In this document: positions 26,741 to 38,441 of the stretch, piece after piece | Position numbering within the stretch: position 1 is the first letter of the stretch | How the letters are laid out: each line of letters begins with the position of its first letter | Assembly (NCBI GenBank): GCA_022482815.1 | Contig: JAKVOM010000001.1 | Location: 1,364,001-1,428,000, forward strand | Direction: 5' to 3' | Origin: Acidaminococcus sp. | GTDB lineage: Bacteria; Bacillota; Negativicutes; Acidaminococcales; Acidaminococcaceae | Length of the DNA: 64,000 nt | Program-made: the position numbers and the translations under genes | Notes under the pieces: generated by a model | Told to the model about the DNA's origin: nothing | Seen by the model: the letters and a program-made list of their open reading frames with translations, nothing else | Databases searched by the model: none

Positions 26741-26880
26741 TCTTTGACATCCTCCCACGAATAAATTCGAGGGATTCCTGAGTGACTAACGCCCTCTGCT
26801 ACCTTGCGATAGTCTTACGAGGACTCCTGCAGATGGACGATGCCCCGCCCAGTATTGTTTACTTCAGGCCGATTCAAGTA
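26741..26880 (-). ncRNA. Predicted omega RNA scaffold (TnpB guide RNA) at the IS right end
   Basis: The 3' end of tnpB and the following non-coding right end, closed by the terminal hairpin near 26749-26776, correspond to where omega RNA is made in this family. The guide would come from bases just left of about 26745. Predicted from family knowledge and position only. Confidence 0.45.
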
Positions 26881-27979
26881 TTCGCAGGCCTTCCTGATGG
26901 ATATTACGGGCAGCATTCCTGTCCCTGTCATGATGCGAACCACAGGCAGGGCAAACCCATTCGCGAATTCGGAGATTTTTCATCTCAGGATTCTTATAGC
27001 TGCATTCCGAGCAGAGTTGGCTGGACGGGAAGTATGGATCTACTTTAACGATTCTTGTACCAACCTGCCTGCCTACATAAGCGAGGATATTCTCGAACTC
27101 AGAAAGCCCGTAGTCCATAACCTTTTTCCCGTGGCCTTTCTGCATGAACTTCATATTCAAGTCCTCAAGACAGATGACTGCGTAGCGGGAGCATAATTCT
27201 CTTGCCAACTGCCAGTGAAAAGCATTACGCTGATTCGCAATCCTACGATGCAGACGAGCCAATTCCTGGCGAGCCCTGCACCGATTGTTTGACTGCATAC
27301 GTTTCCTGGACAGCTTGCGACTGGCACGGGCAATTTCGTTCCTGGCTTTGCGGAAAAATCCTGGTTCCCGGATATCTTCCTCCGGATTTTCAGCTATGAG
27401 CATTTTGCCATTGAAACCGAAATCGAAGCCGACGCTTTTACCTGTTCGTGCTCCTACTTCGACATCCGGCAATTCGCAGGTGAAATAGAGATAGATATCA
27501 CCAAGACTGTCCCGTTTGATAGTCAATGTCTTAATCTTGCCTTCGATGGTACGGCTTTTCGCATAGCGGTATTTCTGTTTTGCGATATAGACAATACCAT
27601 GTTCCTGATCCAGTTTCCAGCCAGCCTGTTTGAGCGTATAGGATTTATACTTTCGCACCTTGCGGAATCCTGGTGGTGCCGTCTTCCGCTCCCGCTTCAG
27701 GTTTTCCCAGAAAAGCTTATAGCCCCTGTCAATGCGTTGAGTAACGTCTTGCAAGGCTTGCGAGCCTATCTCTTTCAGATAAGCAAAACGCGGTATTTTC
27801 TTAAGCTTCGTGAGATGCTTCTGGAGCGCATAGAGGTTCAAGGACTTATGGTACAGTTTCCAATATCTCTTATGCAGGGCGATGCAATGGTTATAGGCCA
27901 TTCCGGCAGCATTAATCTGCCGATGCAGCTTTTTGTTCCGCTTAGCACGGAACAGCTTGAACCCGAATGTCCTGACCAT
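26864..27979 (-). CDS. tnpB: TnpB, RNA-guided endonuclease of IS200/IS605 element
   Basis: 371 aa, full length. RuvC residues are present: Asp in VGFDFGFNGKM, Glu in ICLEDLNMKFM and Asp in HHDRDRNAARNI. The zinc ribbon has two CxxC pairs (CSEC and CPAC) between the last two. The N-terminal helix-turn-helix begins MVRTFGFKLFRAKRNKK. It starts 6 bases after tnpA with its own GGGGTG site. All catalytic residues look intact, so this copy may be an active nuclease even if its partner TnpA is impaired. Confidence 0.92.
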   Translation of the reverse strand: MVRTFGFKLFRAKRNKKLHRQINAAGMAYNHCIALHKRYWKLYHKSLNLYALQKHLTKLKKIPRFAYLKEIGSQALQDVTQRIDRGYKLFWENLKRERKTAPPGFRKVRKYKSYTLKQAGWKLDQEHGIVYIAKQKYRYAKSRTIEGKIKTLTIKRDSLGDIYLYFTCELPDVEVGARTGKSVGFDFGFNGKMLIAENPEEDIREPGFFRKARNEIARASRKLSRKRMQSNNRCRARQELARLHRRIANQRNAFHWQLARELCSRYAVICLEDLNMKFMQKGHGKKVMDYGLSEFENILAYVGRQVGTRIVKVDPYFPSSQLCSECSYKNPEMKNLRIREWVCPACGSHHDRDRNAARNIHQEGLRILESA

Positions 27980-27985
27980 TGCTTT

Positions 27986-28387
27986 TCACCCCCTGGTTTT
28001 TTGAGTATCCACATAGCGTTTAATCGTTTCGCTGCTAACATTGCCGGCCGTCGAAACAAAATAGCTCCTGGTCCATAATGACGACATACCACTCAGTTGA
28101 GGAAATTCATCTCGAAGCCGATGAGAGGAAGCTCCTTTCACCTTCCTCATAATTTCGGCAGGGGATTGCTTCGGCCAGCACCTTAAAAACAAATACACAT
28201 GGTCGATATGGCATTCCATGGCAAGGATTTCAATTTTGAGTTCCTCGCATATCTGCCGTGTCAGCTCCTTGAATCTCTCCTCGACATGAGGAATCAAGAA
28301 TATCTTGCGGCGGTATTTGGGACAGAATACAAAATGATAGTTGATGAAAGATACTGTTGTTTTTGTCCTGAAATATTTATTTTCCAT
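27986..28387 (-). CDS. tnpA: TnpA, IS200-type Y1 transposase with altered HUH motif
   Basis: 133 aa from the ATG at 28387. Family pattern: SFINYHFVFCPKYRRKIF, ECHIDHVYLFL, the KGASSHRLR helix, LWTRSYF and the catalytic-Tyr helix SSETIKRYVDTQ. The metal-binding HUH motif, normally His-hydrophobic-His, reads His-Val-Tyr here (codons CAT GTG TAT). The second metal ligand is thus changed. Tyr could conceivably still bind metal, but reduced activity is expected. Otherwise full length. Confidence 0.88.
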   Translation of the reverse strand: MENKYFRTKTTVSFINYHFVFCPKYRRKIFLIPHVEERFKELTRQICEELKIEILAMECHIDHVYLFLRCWPKQSPAEIMRKVKGASSHRLRDEFPQLSGMSSLWTRSYFVSTAGNVSSETIKRYVDTQKTRG

Positions 28388-28608
28388 GATATTAATATAA
28401 CACGTTAGTAGATAAAAGCAATTAAACATCTACGAGCATGCAAAATATCATTTCGTTTTTAGTGGACGAGTTTCATCCCATGGTTAAAACCAAGGACTTT
28501 CACTCGCTGGGGATTTGTAAATCTGTAAAATAGTAGTGAATTTTTTGCATGAAATATACTTTGATATGTTACACTTGATAGATAGAAAATAAAAGGGGAG
28601 GGAACTAT

Positions 28609-32066: not shown

Positions 32067-32765
32067 ATGGGTATTGCGGAAGCCGCAGGTTCCGAAATCA
32101 TCCACTATGGAACTACCGAAGTCATGCCTGATGTAGTCGTCAACATGCAGACCATCTACATGTCCTGGCTGACGATGCTGATTGTTGCGGTTGTTGTCTT
32201 TGCTGCAACGCGCCGCGTCGAGCTGATTCCTCACGGGATTCAGAACTTTGTGGAAATGTTTATCGAATGGCTGGATAAACTGATGGATGCAAACCTGGGC
32301 ATCGAAGGACGGCGTATGGCAACACCGTTTGTGATCACCTTGTTCTTATACATCTTTGTTGGTAATGAGCTCGGTATGCTGCCGTCTATTTTCGTGCATT
32401 TGTCTTCTCCGACAAATGACATCAACGTAGCCCTGGGACTTTCCATTACAGTGGCAGTTGCCGCCTACATTTTCGGCTGCATCAAACAGGGACCAAGATA
32501 TTTTAAACATTTGATTTCCCCGTTTGCCCTGATGCTGCCGCTGAATATCCTGGAGGAACTGGCCAAGCCTCTGACCATGGCGCTGCGTCTTTTCGGTAAT
32601 ATTCTGGCCGGAGAAATCCTGCTCGGCGTGCTGTACCAACTGGTGCCGTTTGTAGTGCCGAATATCTGGATTGGTTTCAGCTTGATTATCGGATTCCTGC
32701 AGGCATTTATCTTCACGATGCTGACGATTATTGCCCTGGCTCCGATTTTCAAGACGAAATATTAA
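32067..32765 (+). CDS. atpB: ATP synthase subunit a
   Basis: 232 aa, five to six membrane helices. LEELAKPLTMALRLFGNILAGEIL carries the essential Arg of helix 4, followed by the C-terminal IIGFLQAFIFTMLTIIAL. It forms the ion half-channels against the c ring. The ribosome site AAAGGAG precedes the ATG. Confidence 0.95.
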   Translation: MGIAEAAGSEIIHYGTTEVMPDVVVNMQTIYMSWLTMLIVAVVVFAATRRVELIPHGIQNFVEMFIEWLDKLMDANLGIEGRRMATPFVITLFLYIFVGNELGMLPSIFVHLSSPTNDINVALGLSITVAVAAYIFGCIKQGPRYFKHLISPFALMLPLNILEELAKPLTMALRLFGNILAGEILLGVLYQLVPFVVPNIWIGFSLIIGFLQAFIFTMLTIIALAPIFKTKY

Positions 32766-32804: not shown

Positions 32805-33062
32805 ATGATTGACAACAATACTTTGATTATCATTGTTTCCATTATTGGCGCTGCCGCTATCGGCGTAGGCGCCTCCATTGCCGCAACCCGCGGTGACTCC
32901 AACGTAGCCCAGAAGGCTTTGGAATGCATGGCCCGTCAGCCTGAGCAGGCTGGTAACTTCCAGGTCAACATGCTGATTGCTATCGGCCTTGTTGAATCTA
33001 TTCCTATCATTGCTTCCGTTATTGCCATTGTGCTGATTTTTGCAAACCCCTTTACAAAGTAA
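32805..33062 (+). CDS. atpE: ATP synthase subunit c
   Basis: 85 aa hairpin. The loop ARQPE (43-47) anchors the alignment: Glu64-Ser65 in GLVESIP is the ion-binding carboxylate. Asp31 in RGDSNVAQ falls at the position of Gln32 in Na+-type rings and of the second Glu in two-carboxylate rings such as that of Fusobacterium nucleatum. Ion specificity is therefore an open and interesting question. AGGAAAGGAA precedes the ATG. Confidence 0.95.
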   Translation: MIDNNTLIIIVSIIGAAAIGVGASIAATRGDSNVAQKALECMARQPEQAGNFQVNMLIAIGLVESIPIIASVIAIVLIFANPFTK

Positions 33063-33096: not shown

Positions 33097-33588
33097 TTGG
33101 TAAGTATCAACTACACGTTAATTGCGCAGATTGTCAATTTCTTGATTCTTTTATGGATCCTGGCAAAATTTGCTTATAAACCGTTGCTGAAAGCGATGGA
33201 TGACCGCCGTATGCGGATTGTCAAGGATATGGACAATGCCGAGAATGCCAGAAAAGATGCCGAAGCTTTGAAACAGCAGTATGTCGATAAGATGAAAGAC
33301 GCCAAGAAAGAGGCTAATGCAATCATTGCCAAGGCAAATGCCCAGGCTCAGCAGATTCATGACGAAATGCTGGCTCAGGCCCAGAAAGAACGGGAAGAAA
33401 TTTTAAACTCCGGACGTGACCGCGTGGAAGCGGAAAGAAAGAAAGCGCTTCTGGATGTGCGTGAACAAGTCATTGCTCTCAGTACGGAAATTGCCGGGCG
33501 CGTGCTGGAACAGAAACTGACCAGTCAGGCCGATCAAGATTTAGTGGCCCGCGTGACGGATAAAACTCTGGCGGAGAAAAATAAATAA
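33097..33588 (+). CDS. atpF: ATP synthase subunit b
   Basis: 163 aa. One N-terminal membrane helix (YTLIAQIVNFLILLWILAKF) is followed by a long charged coiled coil forming the peripheral stalk. The start is TTG at 33097 with AAGGAAG upstream. Length is normal, and it carries no delta domain at its C-terminus. Confidence 0.93.
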   Translation: MVSINYTLIAQIVNFLILLWILAKFAYKPLLKAMDDRRMRIVKDMDNAENARKDAEALKQQYVDKMKDAKKEANAIIAKANAQAQQIHDEMLAQAQKEREEILNSGRDRVEAERKKALLDVREQVIALSTEIAGRVLEQKLTSQADQDLVARVTDKTLAEKNK

Positions 33589-33594
33589 GGGCTT

Positions 33595-35493
33595 TTGACA
33601 GCTCTTTGGAGGCAGTTGGATAAACAAATGGAAACGACGGATAGAAGAGAACTCTGGAAACAGATCCTGGAGCGTCTGCATATAACGGATGATGACCGGA
33701 AGCTGTTTCCTGCGGGACCTGATTTGCCTGTGTCCATTACGACGGCCAGACCGCTTGAAGAAGGAGAGGAAAGTCTCCTGCTGAGCCTTTTGAACGAAAA
33801 ATTCGGCAAAAAGGTTGTTGTCACAAAGCAGGAAGTGGATGCTTCTCTCGTTGGCGGTATTATTGTCCGCTATGGAGATCATGTTTTTGACGCCTCGATG
33901 AAGCGTCAGCTGGAAAAAATGGACCAACTGATGCAGCAGATTCATCTGGATGCCGGGAACACCGCAGGAACTGAAGGCCTCACTGAAGCTCTTACCAAAG
34001 GGCTCCAGCAATATGATAATCATGTAAATCTGGAAGAAATCGGTGTCGTTCGTACCGTCGGTGACGGTATCTGTACCGCAACGGGTCTCGGCGGCGCTAT
34101 GTCGGGAGAACTTGTCGCCCTTCGTGACGGTGTCTACGGTATGGTGCAGAACCTGTGGCCTGAAGAAGTGGGTATCGTACTTTTGGGCGGTGCCGATAAG
34201 ATTAAAGAAGGCGACATCGTCCGGCGCACGGACAGAGTTATGAGTATCCCTGTTGGCGAGGAAATGCTGGGACGAATTGTCGATCCTTTGGGCAAACCTC
34301 TGGATGGCCGCGGTGCAATTAAAGCCACTGAATACAGACCGATTGAACATCAGGCTCCGGGCATTGCCGCACGTGAACCTGTAAAGGTGCCGCTGCAGAC
34401 CGGTATCAAAGCTGTTGATGCCCTGGTTCCTATCGGGCGGGGCCAGCGTGAATTGATTATCGGCGACAGAGGTACCGGTAAAACGGCTATTGCCGTGGAT
34501 ACCATCCTCAATCAGAAAGATCAAAATGTAATTTGTATTTATGTTGCCATCGGGCAAAAGGCTTCTTCCGTAGCCCGGCTGGCACGTACCTTTGAAAAGT
34601 ATGGAGCTGCTTCATACACGATTGTCATCGCTGCGACGGCAGCCGATACGGCTCCTATGCAGTATCTGGCACCGTATGCCGGTGCTGCTGTGGGAGAATT
34701 TTTCATGGATCAGGGCAAGGATGTCCTGATCGTGTATGATGATTTGAGCAAACATGCCGTGGCCTATCGTGCCATGAGCCTGCTGCTGCGCCGTCCGCCC
34801 GGACGTGAAGCGTATCCTGGCGACGTGTTCTACCTGCATTCCCGTCTGTTGGAACGGGCCTGCCGGAGAAATAAGGCACACGGCGGCGGGTCCATGACGG
34901 CATTGCCGATTATTGAGACTCAGGCCGGCGACGTCAGCGGATACATTCCGACAAACGTAATTTCCATTACGGACGGCCAGATTTATCTGGAAACGGATCT
35001 CTTTAACTCTGGTGTACGGCCTGCTATCAATGCCGGACTTTCCGTATCCCGTGTCGGCGGTTCTGCCCAGACCAAGGCTATGAAGTCCGTGGCAGGCACG
35101 CTGCGTCTGACCCTGGCTCAGTACCGTGAACTGGCAGCCTTTGCCCAGTTTGGATCTGACCTCGACAAAATGACGAAGATGCAGCTCGATCGCGGCGCCC
35201 GCGTGACGGAAATGCTTAAACAGCCGCAGTATCAGCCGCTTTCCATGGAGGAACAGGTCATCAGCCTCTATGCTGTGACCAATGGATTCCTGGATGCGTT
35301 CCCGCAGGAAGACGTGACGCGCTATGAAAAGGAAATGCTGAATTACATCAATGCTCATTACGGAGCTATTCCTGTGGCAATTAAGCGGGATGGAAAGCTG
35401 ACGGATGAAACCAAGGCTTCCCTTGAAGAAGCTTTGAACGAATTCTCCAAGCTGTTTGAACCGACCGATACGGACGAGTTGAAGAAGGGATAA
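33595..35493 (+). CDS. atpA: ATP synthase delta(C-terminal domain)-alpha fusion
   Basis: 632 aa in one uninterrupted frame. Residues about 45-115 match the C-terminal domain of the delta subunit: [20 protein letters not shown] followed by [18 protein letters not shown]. From about residue 123 a complete alpha subunit follows: [20 protein letters not shown]-loop [11 protein letters not shown] near 290, [15 protein letters not shown]. The roughly 105-residue helical N-terminal domain of delta, which binds alpha, is absent, and no separate atpH exists. Start is TTG at 33595 or a nearby codon (ATG 33628 possible). No convincing internal start for alpha is seen. Confidence 0.9.
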
Positions 35494-35497
35494 ACAA

Positions 35498-36409
35498 ATG
35501 GCAAACACGAGTGGAATTCGGGCCCACATGAAAAGTGTAGGCAGTATTGGGAAAATTACCGGAGCTATGCAGATGGTTGCTTCCGCAAGAATGCACCAGG
35601 CAGAACAGCGCGCCAATGCCAGTCTGCCTTTTGCCGTTAAACTGAAGGAACTGCTGCAGGAAGCAATCAGTGACCCTTCCGTACTGGCCCACTTGGATCC
35701 GGTTAAAAACCCGCTGCTTGAACAGCGTCCTGTCTACAAGACGGCGTATATTGTGATTGGTTCTGACAAGGGACTTGCCGGAGCTTACAACAGCAATGTG
35801 GTGAAACATACGGCAATCGAACTGAGAGGCCGGGAGAATTCTCCCCTCATTGCTGTCGGGAAGCAGATGCGTATCGGCCTGGAACATCGCGCATTCAATG
35901 TAGTTCGGACGTGGAATGGTTTTTCCGAAAAGCCGACTTTCGAGGCGGCAGAGGAAGTGGCCGATTACGTTTCGAGTATGTACATTCATCATGAAGTGGA
36001 TGAAGTCGATATTATTTATACGTATTTTAAATCCCCGATGGTGCAGATTCCGCGCACGGTGACGCTCCTTCCCATCAAAGCAAAATTCGGCGAAGAAGAT
36101 GAGGAAGAAAGAGCACAGATGGTGTGGGATACCAAGGACAGTACGGACTTTACGACCATTATCTATGAACCGGCTGCGGGGGAAATGCTTCCTTACCTGG
36201 CTCAATATTATCTGCGGAGCCAGATTTTTACCGCGTTCATCCAGAGTGCTGCCAGTGAACTGGCGGCCCGTATGACGGCCATGACTACGGCTACGGATAA
36301 CGCAAATACGCTTTTGGGCAAGCTGCGCATTCATTATCAGAAAGTGCGGCAGTCCAGTATCACAACAGAAATCAATGAAATTGTAGGCGGTGCTGAGGCG
36401 CTGAAGTAA
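35498..36409 (+). CDS. atpG: ATP synthase subunit gamma
   Basis: 303 aa. N-terminal GIRAHMKSVGSIGKITGAMQ with MVASARMHQAE and C-terminal ARMTAMTTATDNANTLLGKL are the rotor coiled coil. GSDKGLAGAYNSN is the Rossmann-like core. It is slightly longer than usual because of an acidic insertion (KFGEEDEEERAQM). Starts 4 bases after the fusion gene. Confidence 0.95.
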   Translation: MANTSGIRAHMKSVGSIGKITGAMQMVASARMHQAEQRANASLPFAVKLKELLQEAISDPSVLAHLDPVKNPLLEQRPVYKTAYIVIGSDKGLAGAYNSNVVKHTAIELRGRENSPLIAVGKQMRIGLEHRAFNVVRTWNGFSEKPTFEAAEEVADYVSSMYIHHEVDEVDIIYTYFKSPMVQIPRTVTLLPIKAKFGEEDEEERAQMVWDTKDSTDFTTIIYEPAAGEMLPYLAQYYLRSQIFTAFIQSAASELAARMTAMTTATDNANTLLGKLRIHYQKVRQSSITTEINEIVGGAEALK

Positions 36410-36508: not shown

Positions 36509-38002
<1,494 letters not shown>

Positions 38003-38003
38003 T

Positions 38004-38441
38004 ATGGCAAAACTAATGAGTCTTGAAGTGCTGACTCCGGATCGTTATTTGGTACAGCGTAAAGATATTTCCTATGTGTTGCTGAATACGGTAACCGGGG
38101 GTGTCGGTATCCTGGCCAATCATGGTCCGATGGTTGCGGTACTGAGTGAAGGCACATTAAAGTTGCAGGATAAGGATAACCATGTTATTCTAGTATACGT
38201 AGAAGGTGGATTCGCGGAAGTGAAGGATAACAAGGTCGTTATCCTGACCCCGAGAGCCCAGAAGGCGGAGAATATCGACGTTGCAAAATATGAGGGCATC
38301 CGGGACGAAGCTCTGCGGAGACTGGAGCATCCTGATGCATTGACGGATATTGAACATACGGAAAAGGTGTTGAGGCGGGCGCAGGCCAGGCTGAAGACGG
38401 CTTCACTGTTGAACAAAGTGGAACCGTTCCAGATTCCCTGA
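38004..38441 (+). CDS. atpC: ATP synthase subunit epsilon
   Basis: 145 aa. N-terminal beta-sandwich (SLEVLTPDRYLVQRKDISYV, GILANHGPMVAVL) and C-terminal two-helix domain (ALRRLEHPDALTDIEHTEKV). It is the last atp subunit and starts one base after the beta stop. Confidence 0.95.
   Translation: MAKLMSLEVLTPDRYLVQRKDISYVLLNTVTGGVGILANHGPMVAVLSEGTLKLQDKDNHVILVYVEGGFAEVKDNKVVILTPRAQKAENIDVAKYEGIRDEALRRLEHPDALTDIEHTEKVLRRAQARLKTASLLNKVEPFQIP

Follow-up and report, generated by a model that had tools for sequence, protein, structure and literature searches.

A second carboxylate in a probably proton-coupled ATP synthase c subunit of Acidaminococcus, encoded next to a delta-alpha subunit fusion

Results

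The analysed stretch of DNA (hereafter the window; 64,000 nucleotides of contig JAKVOM010000001.1) belongs to an Acidaminococcus genome assembled as one contig of 3,057,042 bases (G000), whose closest relatives that carry a genus name come from Acidaminococcus, at 95% (an uncultured species) and 86% (A. fermentans). It carries an F-type ATP synthase (atp) gene cluster on the plus strand, in which the genes for a, c, b, a delta-alpha fusion, gamma, beta and epsilon follow one another. The first gene, atpB (32067-32765), encodes the 232-aa a subunit with the stator ion channel (TIGR01131, 131.3 bits, cut-off 102.6), which was also aligned to the Bacillus PS3 a subunit. It is followed by the c subunit gene atpE (32805-33062, 85 aa) and by atpF (33097-33588) for the 163-aa b subunit (TIGR01144, 117.3 bits, cut-off 65.5; Pfam ATP-synt_B). 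The next open reading frame (33595-35493, 632 aa) matches both the OSCP and the alpha profile and encodes a fusion of the delta C-terminal domain (CTD) with the alpha subunit. The genes atpG (gamma, 35498-36409; Pfam ATP-synt), atpD (beta, 36524-38002; Pfam ATP-synt_ab) and atpC (epsilon, 38004-38441; Pfam ATP-synt_DE_N) complete the cluster. Elsewhere in the window, the minus strand contains two open reading frames (26864-28429) that by eye resemble a TnpB-type protein of 371 aa and a small, 147-aa transposase of the TnpA type.

With 62.1 bits against TIGR01260 (ATP_synt_c, cut-off 43.95), two predicted helices (residues 4-44 and 46-80), the loop ARQPE and adjoining a and b genes, atpE shows the features of an F-type c subunit. 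In phmmer alignments to the chains of solved c rings, Asp31 (codon GAC, 32895-32897) pairs with Gln32 of Ilyobacter tartaricus (1yce), and with Glu32 of Fusobacterium nucleatum (3zk1). By superposition of the predicted fold it corresponds to mycobacterial residue 32 (Asp); in the Bacillus PS3 ring, read via the alignment of a Negativicutes relative, Asn occupies this position. Glu64, the ion-carrying carboxylate, and Ser65 in helix 2 (32994-32999) pair with the Glu-Ser of 1yce and 3zk1. The preliminary description, which had placed an Asp at the Na+-ligand position, is borne out here; the gap-free alignment it had reported holds from Asp31 onward, while gaps are present N-terminal of this residue. 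In the two solved Na+ rings, Thr-Gly-Ile-Tyr occupies the positions of the following residues Ile66-Pro67-Ile68-Ile69 (33000-33011), making Ile66 the equivalent of Thr67 and Ile69 that of Tyr70. On the inner helix, two residues N-terminal of Asp31, lies the basic Arg29 (32889-32891), which, judged by helix phase, probably faces the ring lumen.

The fold model of atpE is a single hairpin (mean pLDDT 84.6, pTM 0.56). Superposed on the M. phlei c subunit (4v1f; 85 aligned, rmsd 2.2, Z 9.8), model residues 1-85 match 2-86 of that chain, which brings position 31 onto 32 and 64 onto 65. Na+ rings superpose about equally well (3zk1, Z 9.6; 1yce, Z 9.4; best value 9.9), so the fold of atpE cannot tell the coupling ion. 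Unrelated helical proteins also score (4cqi, Z 8.0; 4j11, Z 7.3); Z values alone therefore prove little and the argument is carried by the sequence alignment. A plain Foldseek search with the model gave no match at an E value of 0.001 or better.

The mycobacterial rings (M. phlei 4v1f, M. smegmatis 7nkk; 31-32% identity) share the Asp-Glu carboxylate pair at equivalent positions, but have Ala-Ala-Tyr after Glu65 where atpE has Ser-Ile-Pro. For the mycobacterial bedaquiline site, Asp32 is printed beside Glu65 in a figure legend of PMC5874750. The F. nucleatum Na+ c11 ring (3zk1) likewise has a second carboxylate at 32 and Glu-Ser in helix 2; unlike it, atpE has no counterpart of Thr67 or Tyr70 and no complete GxGxGxGxG motif. 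In the Bacillus PS3 c subunit (1wu0, 6n2d), GIGNG aligns with GIGDG of the Negativicutes relative and Glu-x-x-Pro in helix 2 is common to both, whereas Asn replaces Asp and Ala replaces the Ser after Glu.

In order to place Asp31 within the class, 200 Negativicutes genomes were searched with TIGR01260 (196 matches) and 63 genomes of the order with P0001 (57 matches), together representing 216 different genomes. We read 122 c subunits from 120 genomes and 78 genera; these combine the best-scoring matches, a selection made to cover many genera and those from 32 genomes picked mainly for weak or missing matches (28 of the 32 had one), and are not a random sample. Nine rows were left out as possible duplicates (131 rows with them); they comprise a second copy of the window's c subunit and L005-L012, a set of named records. 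The survey of Negativicutes c subunits proposed in the preliminary description, run here in part, shows Asp31 to be ordinary in the class: of the 122 sequences, 92 have Asp and 30 have Asn at this position. Glu64 is invariant (122/122), and position 65 is Ser (84) or Ala (38). Further residues are Ile (62), Met (36), Val (19) or Leu (5) at position 66, Pro (110), Ala (11) or Cys (1) at position 67, and Ile (111), Leu (10) or Met (1) at position 69. No c subunit among the 122 carries Gln or Glu at position 31, a polar side chain at position 66 or Tyr at position 69. Asp and Asn have been swapped several times at position 31 in the Negativicutes: on a rapidly built tree of 119 a subunits, part of which is unresolved, they require ten changes, a pattern expected of near-equivalent states, with just five independent pairs on well-supported (starred) branches. 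Each of the nine Acidaminococcus genomes read encodes Arg or Lys at residue 29; across the class, Lys, Arg or His stands there in 23 of the 122 c subunits.

The genome encodes a subunit of the OAD_beta family (the Pfam family to which beta subunits of Na+ decarboxylases belong; the assignment is at family level) as well as RnfC. In the Buckel review, the glutaconyl-CoA decarboxylase and Rnf of A. fermentans are described as Na+ pumps. An OAD_beta-type subunit was detected in 171 of the 200 class genomes. Among the 29 genomes without a match, 20 are listed, and the c subunit was read in 14 of these, with Asp in 12 and Asn in two, so Asp31 does not track OAD_beta.

Apart from the atp cluster, the genome contains V-type ATPase genes, clustered at about 717972-726417 of G000:C1 (L113 3973-12418). 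Here, subunit I was called by V_ATPase_I, K by alignment, A and B by side matches and the rest by order and length. The K subunit (C1:720158-720634), a protein separate from atpE, agrees with NtpK of the Enterococcus hirae Na+ V-ATPase (2bl2) at L61, T64, Q65, Y68, Q110 and E139, retaining LPGTQG.Y; the list of E. hirae Na+ ligands was taken from Mulkidjanian 2008, and all of L61, T64, Q65, Q110 and E139 together with Tyr68 are present. Since the K subunit keeps these ligands, a sodium cycle would have an outlet other than the F-type enzyme. V_ATPase_I exceeded its cut-off in 20 of the 200 class genomes, including all eight Acidaminococcus genomes drawn. Four of five further K subunits read carry the same motifs as that of the genome, and the fifth has Ile in place of the Leu that precedes PGTQGIY, with the Gln and Glu retained.

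In the fused frame at 33595-35493, positions 104-170 of the 172-position OSCP profile match aa 45-111, corresponding to the delta CTD, and a full alpha subunit matches aa 128-621. The delta CTD thus stands in frame before alpha, and the delta N-terminal domain (NTD) is absent. No other delta was found in G000, where the fusion is the sole OSCP match of the one-contig genome, and the fused alpha is the sole alpha over the cut-off in G000 and in eight other family genomes checked. About 44 residues precede the delta domain (about 33 if counted from ATG 33628). The fold model of the fused N-terminal part (mean pLDDT 51.7) is too weak to use. Translation of the window fusion may start at ATG 33628 rather than at the start of the frame; the gene also has a TTG with GGAGG three bases upstream, ATG 33628 lying further on. 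Across 21 different fused frames, an ATG near the fused start has a Shine-Dalgarno match of 5-8 bases in 19, and no such matched ATG was found near the fused start of L005. Release of a free alpha subunit from an internal ribosome site is not supported, as start codons at the junction of these 21 frames show weak matches in comparison (0-5 bases, with 5 bases only in L006 and L054).

The same fusion occurs in four of six related named records read (L005-L008, A. fermentans included), whereas delta and alpha are separate in L009 and L012 (Allisonella). In the order, 54 of 63 genomes gave an OSCP match. Within the Acidaminococcaceae, nine of 59 genomes had no match; by its sequence signature, the fusion was found in every one of the 50 with a delta match. 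With two exceptions, these matches start no further upstream than profile position 76; in G107 and G055 the match extends beyond that point only by reading through stop codons. Open frames of 609 aa or more hold 45 of the 50 matches; the remaining five (G192, G168, G209, G211, G214) have frames of 252-471 aa, of which, judged from their coordinates, those of G192, G168 and G209 reach the end of a contig. The class-wide draw gave a weak, C-terminal-type OSCP match in 41 of 44 family genomes, and outside the family a strong match (E 1.8e-39 or better) in 154 of 155 matched genomes. The lone exception (G194, L196), from family f14, carries a gene cluster with the delta-alpha fusion in a 625-aa frame. 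Its a subunit and its delta domain both group with genus g9 of the Acidaminococcaceae, which suggests horizontal transfer, and the fusion cluster was probably acquired in this way.

A further arrangement was observed in family f4 (INTERMEDIATE; L184 = G144, L185 = G215), where the gene for a full delta (197-aa frame) precedes one for a separate small protein. This small protein (frames of 122 and 120 aa) holds a second delta CTD, and its stop overlaps the alpha start. Its own start resembles the alpha N-terminal helix, scoring 11.5 and 10.1 bits with a profile of 24-residue alpha starts, for which the best shuffled control reached 7.8 among the 825 that scored. One fused protein of the Acidaminococcaceae scored 12.6, the Acidaminococcus ones listed fell below zero and the remaining fused proteins of the family were within the range of the shuffles. 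The extra N-terminal residues of a few relatives look like a second alpha N-terminal helix.

The f4 arrangement is a possible intermediate of the fusion. A tandem duplication running from the delta CTD through the alpha N-terminus, followed by fusion and loss of the full delta, would yield all three states. In the delta CTD tree, the f4 small proteins join the Acidaminococcaceae domains (support 83/0, which is weak), so the tree agrees weakly with an origin by tandem duplication. Holding fused and small rows together gave a p-AU of 0.126, a value that says little because the group is badly named: rows labelled 'other' and some labelled 'small' come from Acidaminococcaceae loci too short to show alpha. 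The natural delta-alpha fusion of A. fermentans, with the delta NTD missing, is already in print (Ueno 2025). We found no mention of its spread across the family, of the f4 intermediate or of the f14 transfer in the parts of that study read or in the literature searched.

Discussion

Taken together, these data favor a proton-coupled c subunit, to which we assign a probability of roughly 0.8. Glu64 would take up and release the transported proton. Asp31, on the inner helix, would point at the site of Glu64 and most likely be permanently protonated, acting like the Asn of related enzymes by donating a hydrogen bond to Glu64 and carrying no ion itself. The protonation state of Asp31, its hydrogen bond and H+ as the coupling ion are what we infer; the residues, their alignment, their distribution in the class members read and the lack of the Na+ positions are what we observe. 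As in H+-type two-carboxylate rings of the mycobacterial kind, a second inner-helix carboxylate faces the Glu and is not accompanied by the Na+-type pair at positions 67 and 70. Of the residues that mark Na+-type rings, the Glu65 and Ser/Thr66 equivalents are present as Glu64 and Ser65; the residue at 32 is an acid, neither Gln nor Glu; the polar residue (Ser, Thr, Gln or Arg) at 67 is replaced by Ile66, and Tyr70, which stabilises the carboxylate, by Ile69. According to Mulkidjanian 2008, the Thr67 position is polar in all predicted Na+ enzymes and Leu, Ile or Val in predicted H+ enzymes. Schulz 2013 argues that the second carboxylate is constitutively protonated and energetically like Gln or Asn, and names the double-carboxylate rings of M. 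tuberculosis and S. pneumoniae as H+-driven. From its sequence, the Asp31-Glu64 pair appears to belong to a known kind of site and, with Ile66 and Ile69, to the proton side.

The preliminary description had proposed a two-carboxylate site at Asp31 and Glu64 with relevance to Na+. The site itself is plausible and equals mycobacterial Asp32/Glu65; its link to Na+ finds no support, given Ile66 and Ile69 at the Na+ positions and the presence of Asp31 in genomes without detected OAD_beta. An acid at the Gln32 position alone does not mean a sodium motor, although this shortcut is tempting. Several points count against the proton reading nevertheless. Glu64, Ser65 and the acid at 31 form part of a Na+ ligand set, 36 of the 122 sequences have Met at position 66, a residue unnamed in the published rule, an OAD_beta-type subunit is present in the majority of the class genomes searched (171 of 200), and butyrate-producing anaerobes are drawn as making ATP from Na+ in the Buckel review. 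Moreover, sequence rules for the coupling ion can be wrong, since the N-type ring of B. pseudomallei (second Glu, Thr62, Tyr66) is H+-selective though it was predicted to use Na+. The literature passages and listings examined yielded no experiments on the Acidaminococcus c ring, and searches on Na+ binding by Negativicutes ATP synthase c subunits and on the Veillonella c subunit and sodium found none either.

A Na+-coupled ring resembling that of F. nucleatum, with Asp31 taking the part of Glu32, would fit the acid at the Gln32 position next to Glu-Ser, the OAD_beta subunit and RnfC of the genome and the Na+ dependence of the A. fermentans Rnf given in the Buckel review. In F. nucleatum, the Glu32-Glu65 ring is Na+-driven with Glu32 protonated throughout (Schulz 2013). 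We consider this reading unlikely, as the Thr67 and Tyr70 equivalents are Ile here and hydrophobic in all 122 c subunits, the full Na+ set occurs in none of them, and Asp31 persists in 12 of the 14 c subunits from genomes lacking a detected OAD_beta. A promiscuous ring, carrying either H+ or Na+ as pH and Na+ concentration dictate, is quite unlikely too: the partial ligand set of Asp31, Glu64 and Ser65 is what it would start from, and the two-carboxylate ring of Methanosarcina acetivorans is coupled to both ions according to the same paper (Schulz 2013), but Ile66 and the lost Tyr argue against Na+ binding.

Very improbable, in our view, is a charged Asp31 that pairs with the basic residue 29 and serves the structure of the ring in place of the ion site. 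The raw count in the Acidaminococcaceae is strong, with Asp31 in all 18 rows that have Lys, Arg or His at 29 and Asn in 14 of the 18 others (36 rows). This charge pair, however, is unsupported by independent pairs on the tree, of which starred branches hold four; the sign test gave a median p of 1, and with so small a number of pairs 0.05 cannot be attained. Additionally, one sequence outside the family combines K29 with N31, and helix residues i and i+2 should face opposite sides.

As a c-subunit finding, the proton-coupled ring with Asp31 is ordinary; the surrounding gene cluster is not. Among solved chains, 9jc1 gives the best match to the fused region. This delta-alpha chain of 580 aa occurs three times in its entry and, from its name and length, would be the PS3 construct of Ueno et al. 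In that work, removal of the delta NTD and fusion of the delta CTD to PS3 alpha led to up to three stalks and a subunits and to an H+/ATP ratio of 5.8. The window fusion has the same layout as this engineered deltaDeltaN-alpha FoF1, with the delta CTD on the N-terminus of alpha, no delta NTD, no other delta and no unfused alpha; unlike the construct, it is natural and has extra residues before the delta domain. Ueno 2025 also calls the A. fermentans enzyme very likely multi-stalk and cites two more UniProt entries.

It is conceivable, at a little short of even odds, that the Acidaminococcaceae F-type enzyme is a natural multi-stalk synthase with up to three b2 stalks and a subunits, a proton-type c ring and a raised H+/ATP ratio, operating in Acidaminococcus next to a V-type Na+ cycle. 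Each of the three alpha subunits would carry its own delta CTD, and the higher H+/ATP ratio of such an enzyme would allow it to make ATP when the proton motive force is low. Should the native complex turn out to have several stalks, this family of anaerobes would already rely on the device by which engineering doubled the H+/ATP ratio, and what has been proposed in print for A. fermentans could be tested in many relatives. One genome pairs a probable H+ F-type enzyme bearing the fusion with a V-type ATPase of sodium signature, and a division of labour in which the V-type enzyme handles Na+ and the F-type enzyme H+ would be consistent with both.

Among the other genomes of the survey, one (G061) encodes three different c subunits (L132, L143, L144), two of which have the loop RKPE or KKPE, not RQPE.
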